Source of the DNA: Phycisphaerae bacterium
GTDB lineage: Bacteria; Planctomycetota; Phycisphaerae; UBA1845; Fen-1342
DNA: 11,637 nucleotides
Reading direction: 5' to 3'
Assembly (NCBI GenBank): GCA_026984555.1
Contig: JALSRY010000432.1
Span: forward strand, 1-11,637
Part shown: positions 1,479-11,637 of the stretch, piece by piece
Numbering within the stretch: the first letter of the stretch is position 1
How the letters are laid out: every line of letters starts with the position of its first letter
The notes under the pieces: model-generated
What the model was told of the DNA's origin: nothing
The model's database searches: none
Seen by the model: only the letters and a program-made list of their open reading frames with translations
Program-made: the position numbers and the translations under genes

Positions 1479-4400
1479 TCAGCCACCGACGCGGCCGCGG
1501 ACGGCTCCGGTTTCGATGGTGCGGGTCTGAAGATTGATGATGAACTTGGGGCCGACCGCGGGCCGGTTGAGGCGGTGGGTCTGGAGGTTTTCGTCGAAGA
1601 TGCGGGCCATGATGCCGCGTTTGGGGTCTCCGAGCACCCAAGCGAGTTTTTCCTTGGCGTCGTATTCGAGCTGGTGGGCGTAGATGGTGCGTATGTCGGC
1701 GCCCTGCTGGTCGCGCAGGTAGACGTTGCCGGTGGCGTTGAGCCAGGTGAGCTGCATCCTGGCGGTACCGAGCGAGGATGAGGCACCGGAGGTGACCTCG
1801 AAGGCGACCTCGAGCCGATCGCACGTCACGATGGTGTGGCGGCCGGGGATGTTGTGCAGCGGTCCGCCGTGCTCGATGATCCGTCGCAGCGTGGGCTCCA
1901 GGTCGGCGGGGCGTGTGACGGCGACGTGCTGGAACTGGACCTTGTCGCGAAAGAGCACGGTATCGCGGCGGCGTGGTCCGTCGGCACCGAGGGCGTAGAT
2001 CAGGCCGGAACGGCAGCTCATCGCGGTGATACTGGGGCCGGTGGAGACCAGCGCGGACGAGACGCCGAGCATGGGGCGGGCGGATTTTCCGCCGACGGGC
2101 CGTCGATTCGTCATGCCCAACACGGTTTGGCCGGTGGTGTGGATGATGCGACGGCGGACGTCGATTTCGAGCTCGGGCGCGGTGAGGCTGCGTTCGACGA
2201 TGGGCCGGCCGCGGGGGGAGGCGAGCATCTTGCTTTCGATGAGGGCGTTGGTCGCGCGGATGTGGTCGAGGTCTTTCCGGCCGGAGCCGCCGCGCGGCTT
2301 GGCCCACATGGCGCGGGCGGCGCTGGTGCCGGTGGCGGGGTGGGTTGTGCGCCCGCGGAAGACGTCGGCGACCATCGTGATGCGATCGAGGAGGGATGGC
2401 GGGGGGACGTCGAGCGCGGGCGCCAGCCTGAGGGCCAGTGTGTCGGCGTGAAGCTTATCCGAGCGGGTGCCCGCGACAACCCGGCCGGAAAACTCGACAC
2501 GATCGCGGCGTTCGTCGACGAGCAGGTGCTGCTCGCTGGTCACGGTAATCCACTGGTCGCGCAGGTTGGCCAGTCCCTGTAACCCGCGACGGGAACGAAA
2601 CGCGAGCGTCGAGCGGCCATCGACGCGCAGCGTGCGGGCCTGGTTGTCCGCGTGGATCACGTTGCCGCGCAGCCGGTAGCCGCGAGCGAACACGCGCGCG
2701 GGCACGCGGCTGGAACCGCGGATCGTGGCCCGGCCGAGATCGTTTTGTTCCACGAAGTCGGCGTCGATCTCGCGGCCGGCGGCGGCGAAGTGCGACCGCC
2801 GATCGCGGAGGTTCACGTCGCCGGTGGCGCGCATGTGGCGTACCTGGGCTCGGCCGGACGCCTGGGCGAAATCGAGCTCGAGGCGGGCACAGCGCAGCGC
2901 GCGATCGACGTTGTCGGCGGGTGTGCGCGGCCCGGAGCCGAGCGTTCGGCGGGCGGCGTCGGCGATCGTGCGGACGTCTTTTCGCAGGACGCGCAGCCAC
3001 GGGGGGCCGCTGGTGGGTTCGGAAACGACGAGCTCCACGTCGCCCGTCGCGACGGCCGTATCGAGCAGGCCGGCGAGGGTGGCGGTCTGGTCGCGGCCGG
3101 CGGTTCTGGTGGAGCCGCGCTGCGAGTGCGGCTGTGAAGCGGCGGAGGGTTCGCGGAAGCGGGTGTCGAGGCGGTTGGCGCGGAGCAGTTGTTCGTCGAG
3201 GCGGACCTTGACATCGCCGACGAAGGTGGCGGACTCGGGCGGGCTGGACGCGAGCGGGTTGTCGAAGACGGTGGCGGCGCGCGGGGTGGTCCGGGCGGGG
3301 GCAAGGTGCAGCTCGGCCCATCCGTCGCAGCGGATGTCGAGCGGGCCGGTCGTGTCGGAGACGCCGGAGGAAAGCATGACATCGCCGACGAGCTTGATGA
3401 TGCGCGACTCGAGATCGACGAAGATGCTGGCGGCCCGGACGGAGAGTTTGTCACCGGAAGTGAGATCGACGGCTCCACCGGCGGCGGGGTAGAGCCACAA
3501 CCGGCGGGCCTGCTCGTGCAAGATGAGGCGGCCGCAGCATACTTGCCCGTTGGGCGTTTGCAGCACGAGCGGGCGGCCGCGGGCCTCGACGCGTCGGCGC
3601 GGCCGGGTCGGCTGTTTGGGGGACGCGACGGGCAGCAACGAGAGTCGGCGGCCCCATGTGACGACCACGCGGCGGGTGGGCGCGCTCGCGGGAGCGGACG
3701 CGGCCGCGGGCGCGGAGCCGGGGGGGCCGGCCGGGTGGCGCGGCGCGGCGCGGGGAGTGGCCGGCGGTTCGGTGGCGGGCTTGGGTCGCGGAGCGAGGGT
3801 GCCACGGCGGGCCATGTCGATGAGCAGCGTGAGCTCGTCGCCGCGGAGGGCACCGCGGCGTTGGTCGCCGACGAAGTGATCGACGCGCACGCCGCCGGTG
3901 AGCACGCAACGGTAGGTGGTGGGTTTGCGCCGGCGGCGGCGTTCCGCGGGAGAGGGCGAGGCGGTCTCGGGGGCGGATGCGGGGCGGGTGACGAGGGTGG
4001 CGGATTCGGCGGTGGAGGGTTGCGGGCCGGTGCCGAGCGAGGCGAGCATCTCGCCGCGGAGTGTCATCGTTCCACCGCTGTCGATTTCGAGTTTTTCGAT
4101 GCGGTTGTCTTCGCGGTTCCAGACGAGTTGGAGGCCGGTGCCGCTGATTTCGAAGTCCTCGCCGGCCACGTGGAGGGGGCGGTCGGTCTTGACCTGGCCG
4201 AGGTTCATGTCGAACTCGATGCGGTCGGTCTGGATCGCGATGCGGTCCTCGGGGCGTTGGCTCAGGGGGCTGCGCTGGTAGCTGGTTTCGCGATCGAGCA
4301 CGATCCGGACGTGGCCTTCGAGCCAGCCGCGTTTGGGCTCGATGCGGCGTTTGCGGATCGAGTCGGCCTTTACCTGTCCGCGGTCCGCGGCGATGGTCAG

Positions 4401-4742
4401 GATCATTCCGCTGGGCAGGCGCATCATCAGCTCGGGGCGTGTCAGCAGGATCTGATCCTGCGTGCCGGGGACTTTTTCCCAGGTATCGAGGCGCAGGTAC
4501 TCGGTGGGCTGGCCGGTGAGGGGGTCGTAGTTGACGTAGCCCATCTGTCGCCCGGGGGTGATGTTGACGTCCTTGACGTTGATCTGTTTCTCGGGGGCGA
4601 CATCGATCGCGCCGGGCAGGGGCTGGTGCGCGTCTTCGGCGAGTTCGGGGGGGCGCGCGGGCTCGATCCACGCCTGGTAGCCGAGAAACATCAGCACCAG
4701 GACGGCGGCGGTCGAGATGAGCAAGATGACGTTTCGCGCCAT
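1479..4742 (-). CDS. Giant LptC/LptA (OstA)-like LPS export protein, inner-membrane anchored
   Basis: A 1087-aa protein with an N-terminal membrane anchor (about residues 5-25, VILLISTAAVLVLMFLGYQ) and a long periplasmic part. LptC proteins share this layout but are usually about 190 aa. The body repeats the strand signature of the LptA/LptC/LptD jelly roll, x-G-[DNGH]-V followed by alternating hydrophobics: LEGHV (141-145), LTGGV (281-285), LVGDV (451-455), FVGDV (507-511), ATGDV (565-569), ATGDV (639-643) and ATGNV (1003-1007). Partner strands such as CDRLEVAF, CARLELDF and AHQLEYD lie between them. Pro/Ala-rich linkers lie at about 231-270 and 314-357. I chose ATG 4742 because AGGAA lies about 10 bases upstream and the anchor begins directly; an upstream in-frame start would add 24 unlikely residues. 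It follows kdsC, as in the enterobacterial kdsC-lptC-lptA-lptB order. Family membership is well supported; the idea that it also does the work of LptA is inference. Confidence 0.75.
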   Translation of the reverse strand: MARNVILLISTAAVLVLMFLGYQAWIEPARPPELAEDAHQPLPGAIDVAPEKQINVKDVNITPGRQMGYVNYDPLTGQPTEYLRLDTWEKVPGTQDQILLTRPELMMRLPSGMILTIAADRGQVKADSIRKRRIEPKRGWLEGHVRIVLDRETSYQRSPLSQRPEDRIAIQTDRIEFDMNLGQVKTDRPLHVAGEDFEISGTGLQLVWNREDNRIEKLEIDSGGTMTLRGEMLASLGTGPQPSTAESATLVTRPASAPETASPSPAERRRRRKPTTYRCVLTGGVRVDHFVGDQRRGALRGDELTLLIDMARRGTLAPRPKPATEPPATPRAAPRHPAGPPGSAPAAASAPASAPTRRVVVTWGRRLSLLPVASPKQPTRPRRRVEARGRPLVLQTPNGQVCCGRLILHEQARRLWLYPAAGGAVDLTSGDKLSVRAASIFVDLESRIIKLVGDVMLSSGVSDTTGPLDIRCDGWAELHLAPARTTPRAATVFDNPLASSPPESATFVGDVKVRLDEQLLRANRLDTRFREPSAASQPHSQRGSTRTAGRDQTATLAGLLDTAVATGDVELVVSEPTSGPPWLRVLRKDVRTIADAARRTLGSGPRTPADNVDRALRCARLELDFAQASGRAQVRHMRATGDVNLRDRRSHFAAAGREIDADFVEQNDLGRATIRGSSRVPARVFARGYRLRGNVIHADNQARTLRVDGRSTLAFRSRRGLQGLANLRDQWITVTSEQHLLVDERRDRVEFSGRVVAGTRSDKLHADTLALRLAPALDVPPPSLLDRITMVADVFRGRTTHPATGTSAARAMWAKPRGGSGRKDLDHIRATNALIESKMLASPRGRPIVERSLTAPELEIDVRRRIIHTTGQTVLGMTNRRPVGGKSARPMLGVSSALVSTGPSITAMSCRSGLIYALGADGPRRRDTVLFRDKVQFQHVAVTRPADLEPTLRRIIEHGGPLHNIPGRHTIVTCDRLEVAFEVTSGASSSLGTARMQLTWLNATGNVYLRDQQGADIRTIYAHQLEYDAKEKLAWVLGDPKRGIMARIFDENLQTHRLNRPAVGPKFIINLQTRTIETGAVRGRVGG

Positions 4743-4944: not shown

Positions 4945-5469
4945 TCACGAACGCGCGGCCGGCTCGCCGATGCCGTACTGTTCGAGGACGCGGCCCCAAC
5001 GGCCGTCGTCGCGGGTCAGGTGCTCGACGATCTCGCGGACGGCGCCCTCGCCGCCGGCGTGTTTGGTGACGAAGCGGGCGATCGCTTTGACCTCGGGCGC
5101 GGCGTTGGCGACGGCGACGGGGTATCCGCTGAGCTGCAACATGCCGATATCCGGGAGGTCGTCGCCGACGGCGGCCGCGCGTTCGGGCGGGGCGTCGAGT
5201 CGGTTCAAGAGCGCGCGGAGGTCGGCGGCCTTGTCGCGGCTTCCCTGGATGACGTGGCGGATACCGAGCTCGGCGGCGCGGGCTTCGAGCGCGAGCGACT
5301 CCTTGGCGGTGATGATGGCGACGGTTCCGCCGAGCCTGGTGAACCAGTGCAGGGCGAAGCCGTCGTGCACATGGAAGGAGCGCAGCGGCTCGGTGCAGCC
5401 GCCGTAGAGGAGTTTTCCGTCGGTCAAGACTCCGTCAACGTCGAGGACGAGTATGTCGATTTCCGCCAT
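4945..5469 (-). CDS. kdsC: 3-deoxy-D-manno-octulosonate 8-phosphate phosphatase (KdsC), HAD superfamily
   Basis: Cytoplasmic HAD phosphatase converting KDO 8-phosphate to KDO plus phosphate, the step before CMP-KDO formation for the LPS inner core. The 174-aa length matches the cap-less KdsC family. HAD motif I is LDVDGVLTDG with D10 (nucleophile) and D12. Motif II is IITAKES with T54 (many KdsC have ITGRxS). The motif III Lys is K80. Motif IV is GDDLPD with D103, D104 and D107. The C-terminal signature GGEGAVREI (139-147) matches the KdsC tail that closes the active site. The ATG at 5469 has AAAGGTG about 8 bases upstream. The next gene on this strand is the LptC-like protein, 202 bases on, a pairing known from LPS loci. 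A divergent hydrolase lies upstream. Confidence 0.93.
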   Translation of the reverse strand: MAEIDILVLDVDGVLTDGKLLYGGCTEPLRSFHVHDGFALHWFTRLGGTVAIITAKESLALEARAAELGIRHVIQGSRDKAADLRALLNRLDAPPERAAAVGDDLPDIGMLQLSGYPVAVANAAPEVKAIARFVTKHAGGEGAVREIVEHLTRDDGRWGRVLEQYGIGEPAARS

Positions 5470-5527
5470 TGGGTGGCACCTTTCCGTATGGTGAGCGCCG
5501 GCGGGAGTCCCACGCCGACGTTGATTG

Positions 5528-5540
5528 GGGTATCATACCC
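5528..5540. promoter_or_regulatory. Perfect 13-bp palindrome in the divergent kdsC/hydrolase gap (operator candidate)
   Basis: GGGTATCATACCC is a perfect inverted repeat (GGGTAT/ATACCC) around a single central base. It lies in the only AT-richer stretch of the 113-bp gap between two divergent starts. It contains a -10-like hexamer on both strands (TATCAT on +, TATGAT on -, each 5 of 6). A repressor bound here could control both genes. The identity of any regulator is unknown. Confidence 0.4.
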
Positions 5541-5560
5541 GCGCCGACGACAATTGTTAG
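5532..5560 (-). promoter_or_regulatory. Candidate promoter for kdsC
   Basis: Read on the - strand, CTAACA (5560-5555, 4 of 6 to the -35 consensus) and TATGAT (5537-5532, 5 of 6 to the -10 consensus) are 17 bases apart. This would give a leader of roughly 55 bases before the kdsC ATG. The -10 lies inside the palindrome. Confidence 0.4.
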
Positions 5561-5582
5561 CAGCCGGCCAGGAACCGTGCGT

Positions 5583-6473
5583 ATGAACGAGTCTGCCCCG
5601 CGCGTCATCGACCTCGGAAACATGACCGTCACGCTGCTCGACGGGGGTCGTTTACGGCTGGACGGCGGTGCGATGTTCGGCATCATTCCGCGTCCGCTCT
5701 GGGAGCGTCAAACGCCGGCCGACGAGCGTCACCGCATTCCGCTGGCGTGCAACTGCCTGCTGGTGGAATGGCGCGGCGAGCGCGACCGGCGGGTGATCAT
5801 CGAAACCGGGCACGGGGAGAAATACGGGGCGAAGGAGCAGGCGATTTACGCGATCGATCCGGGTCGCTGGCTGGTGTCGGGGCTGGCCCGGGCCGGTGTC
5901 GAGCCGGAGTCGATCACCGACGTGATCGTGACGCACCTGCACTTCGACCACGCCGGCGGACTGACCCGCCTGGGGGGGGACCGGGTGGTGCCGACGTTTC
6001 CGAACGCCACGGTCCATGTTCAGCGGCGGGAATACGATGATGCCCGCTGTGGTCTGGGGATCATGACGGCGACCTACCGGGACGAGAACCTTCGACCGCT
6101 CGAGGAGGCCGAGCGGTGGAACCTGATCGAGGGGGAACCGGAGATCGCTCCGGGGATTCGGCCGCTTTTGACGCCCGGCCACACTCGCGGCCACCAGGCG
6201 GTGTTGATCCGCGGACGAGACGGGACGGTGGTTTTTCCCGGCGACGTGATGCCGACCGCGGCGCATGTCGGCGCCCCGTACAACATGGCATACGACCTGT
6301 TTCCGCTCGACAACCGCGAATCGAAGAACCGGGTGCTGCGGCAAGCGGCGAACGAGGGGTGGCTCATCGTGCTCGATCACGAACCGAATACGCCGGTGAT
6401 GCGGGCGCAGATCGAAAAAACGTGGTACGGCCTCGTACCGGCCGAAGAGCCGGGGGGGGTGTCGCAGTCGTAA
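5583..6473 (+). CDS. Metallo-beta-lactamase-fold hydrolase (lactonase-like)
   Basis: A 296-aa cytoplasmic metallo-hydrolase with the full zinc site: HLHFDH (H118, H120, D122, H123), H200 in TPGHTRGH, D221 in PGDVMPTAAH and H266 in LDHEPNTP. The layout, with an N-terminal strand region, FGIIPRPLWERQ (32-43), the HxHxDH motif near residue 118 and a TPGHTxGH motif near 198, resembles the N-acyl homoserine lactonase/YtnP-type branch rather than glyoxalase II or RNase Z. Quorum-signal lactonase activity is only a possibility. Start ATG 5583 has AGGAA about 9 bases upstream; an in-frame TTG at 5469 lies at the kdsC start and would add 38 residues with no domain. There is no signal peptide. It is divergent from kdsC and shares the palindromic gap, so co-regulation with LPS synthesis is possible. 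It converges on the prepilin-like gene with 110 bases between. Confidence 0.85.
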   Translation: MNESAPRVIDLGNMTVTLLDGGRLRLDGGAMFGIIPRPLWERQTPADERHRIPLACNCLLVEWRGERDRRVIIETGHGEKYGAKEQAIYAIDPGRWLVSGLARAGVEPESITDVIVTHLHFDHAGGLTRLGGDRVVPTFPNATVHVQRREYDDARCGLGIMTATYRDENLRPLEEAERWNLIEGEPEIAPGIRPLLTPGHTRGHQAVLIRGRDGTVVFPGDVMPTAAHVGAPYNMAYDLFPLDNRESKNRVLRQAANEGWLIVLDHEPNTPVMRAQIEKTWYGLVPAEEPGGVSQS

Positions 6474-7407: not shown

Positions 7408-8766
7408 TTACGGACAGGTGGTTCCGTAGACACTCAGTAGCGTGGCGAGGTCGCTGAGTCCGACCACGCCATCGCCGTCGATATCGGCGTCCGAGTTGTA
7501 GTCCGCATCGGCGGAGTCGAGCCCGTACGAAGCGAGCAGCGCGGCGAGGTCGCTCAGGCCGATCTGGCCGTCGCCGTCGAGGTCGCCGGTGCAAGTCAGG
7601 TCGGCGGCGACGAAGACGGTGTCGTAGTCGATGGTGTCGGAGAAGATGGGGTCGGTCGCGTTGTTGATGCCGAACCCGACACCTTCGAGATAGACGAATC
7701 GCTCGGCGCTGGGCGGGAGAAGGGGCACGACGACGGCATCGAGATAGGCGCCGAGGTCGCCGCCGAAATCGGCGAGGGCCTGGCCGCCGTTTCCGGGCGC
7801 GGTGAAGTCATCGCCGGGGGCGCCTTCGGCGACGGTCGCGGTACCGCCGGCGAGGCCGTGGGCGGTGTTGACGGTCTGGCCGACGTACTGATCGGCGACG
7901 GCGGGCCAGGCGGTGGTTCCGAGCCCGTGACCGGCGAGGGTGGGGAACTGTCCGGTGGCGGGATCGCGTTCGACGAGGTAGCCGTTGAGCGTTCCGAGGA
8001 ACTGGAAGGTGCCGAGGAGGTCGGCCGAGCCGGAAGCCGGGTCGATGGAGTCGTACCAGAACTCGTATCCGAGGTTGGAGATGCGGTAGACGCCGGCGAG
8101 TTGGCCGGAGCCGTTGAAGGGTGTCAGGGTGCCGATGCGGGTATCGAGGTCGGGGTTGATGGCGGGGCCGCGCGTGCCGTCGTTTTCGGTACCGGCGAGC
8201 GTGAGGAGGACGGTTGCGGTTTCGGCCTGGATGCCGGGGCCGCCCTCGTTGCTCCCGGTGGCATCGACGTTGATGAGCTCGACGATTCCGCCGGCGATAT
8301 CGAAGCGCAGGTCGAGGTAGCTTTCGATTCCGTCCATCGTCACGGGGGTTTGTCCGTCGACGGGGACGAGGCTGCGCACGCCGTTGCCGAGGTCGCCATC
8401 GAGATCGAGCCGCGGGCCGCCGAGGTAATCCACTCCCATCAGCGGCATCTGGCCGGTGAACGGAATGGGCACGGATCCGCGGTGGAAGAGGAAGCTCAGC
8501 GAGCCGAACTCGTTGGGCTGGAACATGGGCGTGCCGACGCCGACGAACTGGATTTCGGGTCCGTCGTCGGCGGTGCCGGCCAGCCGGTCGCCGTCATAGA
8601 AGGTGCCGTCGATTCCCGGTCCGGGCACGGGGGTGACGGCTCGTTCGGAACCGGGCCAGTGACGAACATTGACGCCGGTGAGCAGTGTCAACTTGTCGGC
8701 GCCGGCGGACGAAACGAGAAACGCTGCGAGGACTACGGCGGCGATACGACGATTGGTGGTTTTCAT
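7408..8766 (-). CDS. Secreted protein with C-terminal dockerin type I repeat pair
   Basis: A 452-aa exported protein with a Sec signal peptide (basic MKTTNRR, hydrophobic 8-20, likely cut after A23 in SAGA). Residues 24-390 are acidic, Gly/Asp-rich and beta-prone, with no family I recognise. Residues 391-452 are a dockerin-like module with two Ca-binding loops followed by helices: GDLDGDGQIGLSDLAALL (394-411) and ADIDGDGVVGLSDLATLL (427-444). C392 and C451 flank the module and could form a disulphide. Planctomycetota often carry such C-terminal pairs outside any cellulosome. The ATG at 8766 has AGGGAGAAGGAA directly upstream; a longer in-frame reading to 8889 would bury the signal peptide. 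The prepilin-like gene follows on the same strand. The function of the main domain is unknown; it may be a surface or extracellular structural protein. Confidence 0.85.
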   Translation of the reverse strand: MKTTNRRIAAVVLAAFLVSSAGADKLTLLTGVNVRHWPGSERAVTPVPGPGIDGTFYDGDRLAGTADDGPEIQFVGVGTPMFQPNEFGSLSFLFHRGSVPIPFTGQMPLMGVDYLGGPRLDLDGDLGNGVRSLVPVDGQTPVTMDGIESYLDLRFDIAGGIVELINVDATGSNEGGPGIQAETATVLLTLAGTENDGTRGPAINPDLDTRIGTLTPFNGSGQLAGVYRISNLGYEFWYDSIDPASGSADLLGTFQFLGTLNGYLVERDPATGQFPTLAGHGLGTTAWPAVADQYVGQTVNTAHGLAGGTATVAEGAPGDDFTAPGNGGQALADFGGDLGAYLDAVVVPLLPPSAERFVYLEGVGFGINNATDPIFSDTIDYDTVFVAADLTCTGDLDGDGQIGLSDLAALLASYGLDSADADYNSDADIDGDGVVGLSDLATLLSVYGTTCP

Positions 8767-9055
8767 TTCCTTCTCCCTTTCCCCCATGCGGTTTCGTTCG
8801 ACGGCCCAACGGCGGGCGCGGGCGACCTTGCCGAGGCCGCGCGCCGGCCATGCCGCGCGCCGCGATCGAAACCGAAGCCTGTCTGGCATTCATGTTCGCG
8901 CAAGCGCCCCGCGCCGCCGGCGGCCTACGCGGCCGGTCGCGACACGATCCGGTTGGATTGCGCGTGCGTTGCGAACACCTGCTCTCTGCTCGTGCCCCAG
9001 GGCCCGCGGCGAGCGGGCGGCGGGGGCTACCGGAAACAACGACCCCGGTACACGA

Positions 9056-9814: not shown

Positions 9815-11329
9815 TTACGGCGACGGAGCCGAGGACGCCGGCGATTGCTCCGCGCCGCCCACGTAGCCGAGCGATTCGAGCTTGCGGAAGAGCTTGTCGG
9901 GCAAATCCGATATCTTCGGCGACCGCGGATACCGTTCGCGGAACCGCTTGAGCAAGCCACGCGAGAACTTCAAATCGCGAATACAAGCGCGAACGACCGG
10001 CGAGCGTTTGTTCTGTACGGCGACGTGCTCGGTCGGATCGTGCTTGAGATCGAACACCACGCCCCGGTCGACGGACAAGTCCCAAATGATCTTGCGGTTG
10101 AGGCGACGGAACGATTCGAAATGGTGCCCCCACGTGTCGAGCTCGCTGATGGCGGGGTCGTCGCGGTCGGTCTTGCGGCCGGCGAACAGGGGCGCCAGGC
10201 TCTGGCCCATCAGGCGCGGGGGCATGAAGTCGGCCAGATCGAGGACGGTGGGCAGGATGTCCACGGTTCGAGCTTGTTGGACTATGCGCATTCCCGCGGG
10301 TATGCGCCGGGGGAACCTGACGATCAGGGGGATGCGGATCAGCTCGTCGAAGAGGGTGTTGCGGTGTCCTTTCAGACCGTGCTCGAAAAAGGCCGTGCCG
10401 TGGTCGGCGGTGACGATGACCACGCTCGAATCGAGCAGGCCGCGGGTGCGCAGGTCATCGATGATCTTGCCGAAGTGCATGTCGGTCCAGGCGATCTCGC
10501 CGTCATAGAGGGCGATGATGTGTTCGAGATCCCGGCGGGGCATGTTCTTGTTGATTTTGGGGTTGAAGAAGAACCGCTCGCCGGTGATGTCGCCGTGGTA
10601 ATCCGGGTCGAACTTCTTGTCGAACGGCGGCGGGGGGATGAAATCGAAATGCACGTCCCACATATGGACAAACATGAAGAAGGGCTTGTGCTCGTTGCCC
10701 GCAAGCCACTTCCGGACCGCTGCGAGCACGCGCGGGTTGGTGATGTCGCGGTCCATCGCCTCCCAGATTTTCTGGCCCTCGACGGTACCGGTTTTTTCCG
10801 CGGAGGCCTTCATCAACCCGGCGTAAGAGGTGCAATCGATGTATTGGTCGAACCCCTGGTCGAGGCCGAAGACGGGGTGGAGATAGGGACCGGAGAAGAA
10901 CCCCACGGTGGCATAGCCGGCGTCACGGAGCCGTTCCGCGAGCGTGTAATACTTGTCATGGAGCCGGCGATCGGTGTTCGTACAGCCGTGCACCGAGCAG
11001 GCGACGCCGGTGAAGAGCGAGGCATGCGCCGGCAGGGTCCACGACGAGGCGCTGACGGCGTTCTCGAACAGGGCCCCCTCGCGGGCGAAGGCGTCGATAT
11101 GCGGGCTCGTGTCGCGTCCGTATCCGTAGCACCCCAGGTGGTCGGGTCGCAGCGTGTCGATCGAGAAGATGATGATGTTCGGACGTGGTCCGGTGGGTTT
11201 TTCGTTTTCGAGCGAGGGGCTCTCGACTTGCCTGGCCGGTGGCTTTTTGCACCCCGGGCACCATCCCGCTCCCAAGAGCAGCAGCCCCCCCACCGCCAGC
11301 CGCACGCACGCCCGCATCGTTCGCGTCAT
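9815..11329 (-). CDS. Sulfatase/alkaline-phosphatase-superfamily hydrolase with Thr at the nucleophile site, lipoprotein-like
   Basis: A 504-aa exported enzyme of the arylsulfatase family. Residues 1-27 are a signal peptide with Cys residues at 24 and 27 (GWCPGCKK), so a lipoprotein is possible although the lipobox is poor. The metal-site opening is SIDTLRPDHLGCYGY (56-70; D58, D63). The active-site signature, normally [CS]-x-P-S-R-x(4)-T-G, reads T98-L-P-A-H-A-S-L-F-T-G (98-108), with Thr where formylglycine would form. Distal metal residues are D309 and H310 (TADHG) and H322 (KGH). The tail ends in a LESLGYVGG motif (484-492), which I associate with planctomycete homologues. Thr nucleophiles occur in phospho-transferring relatives (LtaS, EptA, NPP), so phosphodiester or phospho-transfer chemistry is as likely as sulfate release. 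The ATG at 11329 has AGGAG 8 bases upstream. No anaerobic or FGE-type maturase is in view. Confidence 0.88.
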   Translation of the reverse strand: MTRTMRACVRLAVGGLLLLGAGWCPGCKKPPARQVESPSLENEKPTGPRPNIIIFSIDTLRPDHLGCYGYGRDTSPHIDAFAREGALFENAVSASSWTLPAHASLFTGVACSVHGCTNTDRRLHDKYYTLAERLRDAGYATVGFFSGPYLHPVFGLDQGFDQYIDCTSYAGLMKASAEKTGTVEGQKIWEAMDRDITNPRVLAAVRKWLAGNEHKPFFMFVHMWDVHFDFIPPPPFDKKFDPDYHGDITGERFFFNPKINKNMPRRDLEHIIALYDGEIAWTDMHFGKIIDDLRTRGLLDSSVVIVTADHGTAFFEHGLKGHRNTLFDELIRIPLIVRFPRRIPAGMRIVQQARTVDILPTVLDLADFMPPRLMGQSLAPLFAGRKTDRDDPAISELDTWGHHFESFRRLNRKIIWDLSVDRGVVFDLKHDPTEHVAVQNKRSPVVRACIRDLKFSRGLLKRFRERYPRSPKISDLPDKLFRKLESLGYVGGAEQSPASSAPSP

Positions 11330-11637
11330 CGAGTCGTCTCCTGTGCCGCCGCGTGCCCGCCGACAGGCGTCCGCGTACCTCGTGGCGAAGCCCCGGGGCG
11401 GGCGCGGCATCGGTCCGGCATGCTACCACATGACCCTATCGGGCGTCATCGGCGGGGAAGGTGCGGCGCAGGGGGAAGACGGCGCCGAAAACGAGGGGGG
11501 CGGGCGTGGATACGAGTCCGGGCGCCGGGCGATCCGGAGGTATGGCAGCGGCGCGAAGCGTGGCGCGGATTCGTGTACAGCCTGCCAAAACGGCGGGCGG
11601 AGTGCCGAAGCACGATCGCACAAGTCTTTCCCATTAC
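11330..11637. other. Gene-free right end upstream of the sulfatase-like gene
   Basis: These 308 bases hold no convincing coding region on either strand. The short open frames read as Arg/Pro/Ala-rich peptides without domains and lack good ribosome sites. The part nearest the sulfatase-like gene carries its ribosome site and a promoter candidate. I see no tRNA, repeat or attachment site. The neighbour beyond the edge is unknown. Confidence 0.5.
11420..11449 (-). promoter_or_regulatory. Candidate promoter of the sulfatase-like gene
   Basis: Read on the - strand, ATGACG (11449-11444, 4 of 6 to the -35 consensus) and TAGCAT (11425-11420, 4 of 6 to the -10 consensus) are 18 bases apart, with TGTGG just before the -10. 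The leader would be about 85 bases. This is weak evidence from sequence alone. Confidence 0.3.

Follow-up and report, generated by a model that had tools for sequence, protein, structure and literature searches.

The Lpt pathway moves lipopolysaccharide (LPS) in steps: after extraction by LptB2FG it is taken up by LptC, handed along by LptA units and finally inserted by LptD. An 11,637-nucleotide stretch of DNA from a Phycisphaerae bacterium raises the question of whether the periplasmic part of this relay can be built into a single polypeptide. The stretch, referred to below as the window, is the entire contig C432 (11.6 kb) of a draft genome of 3.48 Mb in 808 contigs, which is 88.7% complete. 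It carries a gene for a 1087-residue protein, here called the bridge gene and the bridge protein. On its sequence relationships, this product is probably a fused LptC-LptA, a periplasmic LPS-export bridge in one chain that is conserved across an order of Planctomycetota.

Sequence features of the bridge protein

The bridge gene lies on the minus strand, with its ATG at 4742 and its stop at 1479 (Table 1). A first-pass annotation of the window had given these coordinates and the 1087-residue length exactly, and its description of the product, with one N-terminal membrane helix, at least seven G-[DNGH]-V motifs and Pro/Ala linkers, agreed with our analysis. Hydropathy predicted the N-terminal helix (Kyte-Doolittle 19-residue mean 2.22) and no other, all segments starting after residue 40 scoring 1.27 or less. 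We infer that this helix is uncleaved and that the remainder of the protein is periplasmic. The motif occurs eight times, at residues 143, 283, 453, 509, 567, 641, 693 and 1005; shuffled sequences contained 1.1 on average, and none of 5000 shuffles had eight. In a 29-sequence alignment, the motif glycines at 143, 453, 509, 641 and 693 were invariant and that at 567 was at least 90% conserved, while those at 283 and 1005 fell into neither class. Segments rich in Pro, Ala, Ser and Thr were identified by composition at approximately 241-265 and 311-365; a third, at 481-505, is shorter. The hydrophobic alternation typical of beta strands was 0.274, compared with 0.220 in shuffles (standard deviation 0.010).

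Homology to LptC, LptA and the LptD N-terminal domain

The N-terminal part of the window protein matched the LptC family PF06835 at 22.5 bits, over the Pfam cut-off of 21, and the LptC model TIGR04409 at E 1.5e-7 and 31.1 bits, under the equivalog cut-off of 38. Further along, PF03968 (LptA/LptD_N) reached 19.8 bits at residues 502-533, slightly under its cut-off of 20.4, and TIGR03002 (LptA) gave a weak match at residues 726-771, far under its cut-off. A search among 5.8 billion proteins, in which the best 8000 word-sharing candidates were scored and lengths of 0.55 to 1.75 times the query were admitted, returned at least 28 homologues of 1003-1220 residues. Query coverage was at least 70% in 25 of the 28 and 30-53% in the remaining three. 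The window protein and these homologues, 29 sequences in total, were scanned as a family at E ≤ 0.1. As a result, PF03968 matched 23 members (best E 1.7e-12), TIGR04409 24 (3.3e-8), TIGR03002 21 (1.2e-9) and PF06835 12 (4.6e-6). Additional matches were to the LptD model PRK03761 in three members, to ProQ_C in two, and to other families in one member each.

The same scan bears on the possibility that the protein is a TamB/AsmA-type phospholipid bridge that merely resembles Lpt proteins. These one-piece bridges are likewise long, anchored and beta-rich, and TamB, with approximately 1260 residues, is of similar size, although the comparison concerns only the way such proteins work. The nine Pfam families matched by the 29 members included LptC and LptA/LptD_N, however, and no AsmA, TamB or DUF490. 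Membership in the TamB/AsmA families was rejected on this basis, and such an origin is very improbable.

When the family profile was compared with all PDB sequences, 19 matches were obtained at E ≤ 10, comprising ten LptD, seven LptA and two Hfq entries. The LptD N-terminal domains aligned weakly with profile positions 466-535. The N-terminal part of the LptD of the order gave weak probabilities of 9.6% against E. coli LptA and 36% against the family.

Tandem organisation into five modules

Comparison of a 53-sequence family profile with itself indicated internal repetition. Positions 387-1080 aligned with 110-871 at E 2e-16, and a second alignment joined 611-709 to 967-1080 at E 6.6e-10, compared with 0.03 for the reversed profile and 0.46-0.94 for five column shuffles. 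Based on these self-alignments and the motifs, we set the boundaries of five modules, M1 to M5 (Table 1). All six pairs among M2-M5 were related in hhalign comparisons at E 2.9e-6 to 2e-9, the best of 60 shuffled controls reaching 0.018. The alignment of M4 to E. coli LptA had an E-value of 1.6e-7 and a probability of 93.9%.

Table 1 Position and evidence for the bridge gene, its modules and linkers, and the adjoining kdsC gene
Feature	Position in window	Strand	Evidence
lptC/lptA-like one-piece bridge gene, 1087 residues (putative)	1479..4742	minus	open reading frame; LptC and LptA/LptD-N profiles; homologues; order-wide presence
Single N-terminal membrane helix, residues 4-23	4674..4733	minus	hydropathy; family consensus start M-x-R-N-V-I-L-L
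M1, residues 60-232, LptC-like	4047..4565	minus	PF06835 at 66-206, over cut-off; TIGR04409 at 69-206
Pro/Ala/Ser/Thr-rich linker, residues 233-271	3930..4046	minus	composition at 241-265; gap-rich at 262-267
M2, residues 272-480	3303..3929	minus	hhalign to M3 (1.8e-7), M4 (2.9e-6) and M5 (7e-7)
Pro/Ala-rich insert, residues 311-355	3678..3812	minus	composition; gap-rich at 328-347
M3, residues 494-720, LptA/LptD-N-like start at 502-533	2583..3263	minus	PF03968; PDB LptD N-domain; hhalign to M5 (E 2e-9)
Variable insert, residues 534-610	2913..3143	minus	gap-rich at 534-553 and 574-610 (53-sequence alignment)
M4, residues 725-885, most LptA-like	2088..2570	minus	TIGR03002 at 726-771, weak; hhalign to E. 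coli LptA
M5, residues 905-1083, C-terminal	1494..2030	minus	hhalign to M3 (E 2e-9) and M4 (E 8e-8)
kdsC, Kdo-8-phosphate phosphatase, directly upstream of the bridge gene	4945..5469	minus	TIGR01670, E 5.9e-41, over cut-off

Comparison with known Lpt proteins

The bridge protein shares with LptC (191 residues in E. coli; PF06835, TIGR04409) the N-terminal membrane anchor, the LptC domain and a gene position after kdsC. It differs in its size of 1087 residues, as opposed to a single domain of approximately 190, with about four extra modules, and in that lptA and lptB do not follow it in the window. With LptA (185 residues in E. coli; PF03968, TIGR03002) it shares the M4 alignment and the PF03968 matches, which in the family are widespread and in the window protein itself fall just short of the cut-off. 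LptA is, however, a free periplasmic unit with a cleaved signal peptide, whereas the bridge modules stand covalently in tandem, following a membrane helix within a single reading frame, and M2, M3 and M5 have no direct match to E. coli LptA. By its sequence the bridge protein is related to both LptC and LptA, while it has neither the size of the former nor the free form of the latter. The likeness to LptD is confined to the N-terminal domain; the bridge protein has no beta-barrel, and LptD is a separate gene of approximately 1000 residues in the order. Proteins with multiple OstA domains occur in Bacteroidetes and Deinococcus-Thermus.

Position of the bridge gene after kdsC

The gene immediately upstream of the bridge gene in the window is kdsC, which lies on the same strand and which the first-pass annotation left unmentioned. 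Of 33 distinct loci, 30 had kdsC immediately upstream and in the orientation of the bridge gene. The three remaining loci were L033, with just 293 upstream bases, L038, in which kdsC overlaps a long read-through of the match, and L060, in which none was seen. The gene order in E. coli K-12 is kdsC-lptC-lptA-lptB, so that the bridge gene occupies the position of lptC. Beyond kdsC the neighbours vary; same-strand genes downstream include lepA (L054), lpxD (L051), DUF1015 (L034), a DUF1559 protein (L047) and an Rce1-like gene.

This context also bears on the cargo. An LptC-like bridge with the same mechanics could carry another lipid or glycolipid instead of LPS, and other cargoes have been suggested for Lpt-like systems: Borrelia is reported to have no LPS and yet to encode Lpt orthologues (PMC10353723). 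Against this, the bridge gene follows a gene of 3-deoxy-D-manno-oct-2-ulosonate (Kdo) synthesis in nearly all loci, lpxD lies downstream in L051, and most of the order's genomes contain LptD and LptF/G. A cargo other than LPS is accordingly improbable.

As the first-pass annotation had claimed, neither lptA nor lptB was seen in the window, among its open reading frames (ORFs) or among the eight proteins scanned with Pfam and the five scanned with NCBIfam. Same-strand ORFs starting within 400 bases downstream of the gene were collected from the 27 of 29 loci that have at least 600 bases on that side. At E ≤ 0.1, none of the 34 ORFs matched the models of the family or of the E. coli LptA and LptC proteins, and a hidden lptA just downstream was rejected. 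A gene of LptA size downstream in L032 and L037 was identified as an Rce1-like protease, not LptA.

Distribution of the bridge gene and of the other Lpt parts

The family profile matched 107 of the 114 genomes of the order, and 63 of the 65 good ones, when the best candidates (at most seven per genome) were scored. Uncut frames were mostly approximately 1060-1370 residues from stop to stop. The 11 named relatives were all Planctomycetota drafts, eight of them Phycisphaerae or Phycisphaerales. Since the window consists of a single 11.6 kb contig from an 808-contig draft, an assembly or frame artefact fusing lptC with its neighbours was considered. The same long frame recurs, however, in independent genomes, including the single-contig assemblies G010, G030, G107 and G108, and in P0001 at 78% identity. 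The artefact was rejected, and its probability is negligible.

LptF/G was found in 112 of the 114 genomes and LptD in 97, of which 94 were over the cut-off. Among the few such partner proteins that were read, both kinds were enlarged as well. In two genomes, LptD had approximately 550 residues ahead of its PF04453 match. One of these is the LptD of the window's own genome (L101:2440-5439, contig C351), a protein of approximately 999 residues whose N-terminal part shows by eye at least two LptA-like start motifs. In three genomes, one LptF/G protein was 548-573 residues long (L104:5138-6784, L105:4514-6235 and L109:7199-8878), in which, according to hydropathy, a loop of approximately 350 residues separates the third membrane helix from the fourth. 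Another copy in the same genomes fits the whole 353-position profile within approximately 350 residues. The long loop may be an additional periplasmic module that goes with the long bridge.

Search for a separate LptA

In the window's own genome, PF03968 gave no match, the only PF06835 match was the bridge gene, and one LptB above the cut-off lay on a contig other than that of the bridge gene. A normal lptC-lptA-lptB set elsewhere in the genome, which the first-pass annotation had named as evidence that would speak against a fusion, was thus not found. The genome search that this annotation had proposed gave LptB and LptD elsewhere, no separate lptA with PF03968 and no LptF/G match. The lptB gene adjoins putative genes for arginyl-tRNA synthetase (argS) and signal peptidase, both named by eye.

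Across the order, PF03968 gave 13 matches in 11 of 114 genomes; compared by eye, nine lay in the bridge gene and four in LptD-matching frames. A module profile of 25 sequences (residues 630-790) gave 104 matches in 102 of the genomes and none in the other 12. By eye, all 104 were in frames also matched by the long-gene profile, one of them a 763-residue variant in genome G016. No stand-alone LptA was thereby detected in the 114 genomes with PF03968 and the module profile, screens that a very divergent LptA could escape. The G016 variant (L100:3118-5409, contig C31) is a bridge relative that scores 94.8 bits against the family model and has a membrane helix at its N-terminus; G016, which is 68% complete, contains in addition a fragment of a bridge gene of the usual long form.

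Weighing the fused bridge against an extended LptC

Several observations weigh against a fused bridge and have to be set beside the evidence above. The PDB matches were weak one by one, with a best E of 0.0068, so that the weight rests on the agreement among them and on no single one. No match to the family was obtained with the E. coli LptC profile (probability at most 0.5%); in a comparison of this kind it misses E. coli LptA too, which makes its failure uninformative. M1 resembled M2-M5 only weakly (E 5e-4 to 0.043). The probabilities against E. coli LptA were 6.6, 6.1, 2.0 and 0.3% for M2, M3, M5 and M1, so that one module of five matches directly, and the other four are tied to LptA by way of M4, PF03968 and their likeness to each other. 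Hydrophobic alternation supports the fold only weakly, since E. coli LptA (0.298 against 0.271 in shuffles, standard deviation 0.032) and LptC (0.293 against 0.288, standard deviation 0.029) barely exceed their own shuffles. Seven of the 114 genomes gave no family match. PF03968 detected the bridge gene in just eight genomes, which indicates a limited reach of that screen, and the module screen scored only the best candidates, at most 32 per genome. Finally, no LptF/G was matched in the genome of the window, which is 88.7% complete. As nearly all genomes of the order have LptF/G, its loss from the lineage was rejected, and the missing match most probably reflects the incompleteness of this genome.

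Some of these points would also fit a different reading, in which the protein is an extended LptC that still passes LPS to a separate, very divergent LptA, its extra modules lengthening the inner-membrane end only. The screens for LptA were limited, PF03968 reaching 11 genomes though 107 carry the long gene; a single module matches the E. coli LptA profile; and the 763-residue relative implies that the length is not fixed. On the other side, the family-derived module profile found no other frame in the 102 matching genomes within the candidates scored, none of the ORFs just downstream matched LptA, LptC or the family, and M4 aligned with LptA at a low E-value. We regard an extended LptC with a separate LptA as unlikely.

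The proposal of the first-pass annotation, a fused LptC that also replaces LptA, is thus upheld in part. Homology of the family to the LptC and LptA/LptD-N profiles, the tandem modules, the position next to kdsC and the lack of a detected stand-alone LptA in the 114 genomes speak for it; the profile comparison with the E. coli proteins does so only for M4 with LptA, and for no module with LptC.

Proposed mechanism

For a fused LptC-LptA bridge, we infer a beta-taco fold with a groove, docking to LptD, LPS as cargo and replacement of LptA. The N-terminal helix would anchor the protein in the inner membrane beside LptB2FG, and M1 would act in place of LptC, taking LPS from LptF. The LptA-like modules M2-M5 would carry the lipid part along a common groove, with ATP hydrolysis by LptB pushing LPS along as in the known Lpt pathway, and M5 would dock onto the long N-terminal part of LptD.

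TamB is reported to contain a hydrophobic beta-taco and to measure 150-200 Å in length (PMC5719984). Because well-occupied alignment columns hold 972 of the 1087 residues of the bridge protein, this reported length makes a rod of roughly 15-20 nm plausible for the bridge. We see an even chance that the order exports LPS without LptA, with a single covalent protein as the whole periplasmic path between LptB2FG and LptD. In that case, module number would determine or gauge how wide the periplasm is.

Other genes near the bridge gene

Several further genes were recorded in the window. Positions 893-1417 encode an MntR-type metalloregulator (NF008273, 200 bits against a cut-off of 153) that converges with the bridge gene. 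Divergent from kdsC, positions 5469-6473 encode a metallo-beta-lactamase-fold hydrolase whose nearest relatives are YtnP-type lactonases (183.6 bits against a cut-off of 425); a homologue lies near the bridge gene in 14 of 32 loci, two of these being repeats. A 493-residue protein at 7408-8889 carries a C-terminal dockerin/EF-hand-like repeat pair, every match being under the Pfam cut-offs, and a sulfatase-family protein is encoded at 9815-11410 (PF00884, E 9.7e-44). In the other loci, argS was located downstream of the bridge gene in six, five of them distinct (L042:11601-13757, L031, L039, L040, L043 and L049), its identity having been scanned in L042.

Implications for LPS export in Planctomycetota

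Among the titles and abstract openings listed from the open-licence PubMed Central literature (at most 20 papers per search), neither a fused LptC-LptA nor this bridge protein was described. The component parts are known, and among those papers their fusion appears to be undescribed. According to a survey of 903 genomes, Planctomycetes have a largely reduced Lpt system (PMC8871954). An earlier study of Planctomycetes genomes took LptD and BamA as markers, the only tested genes of sufficient specificity and conservation, and added TonB (PMC3422733). Fusion of LptC and LptA would account for the Lpt parts missing in Planctomycetes. Furthermore, a natural one-chain bridge would make groove continuity, stoichiometry and the relation of bridge length to periplasm width testable, questions that are hard to address with LptA oligomers of unknown number.

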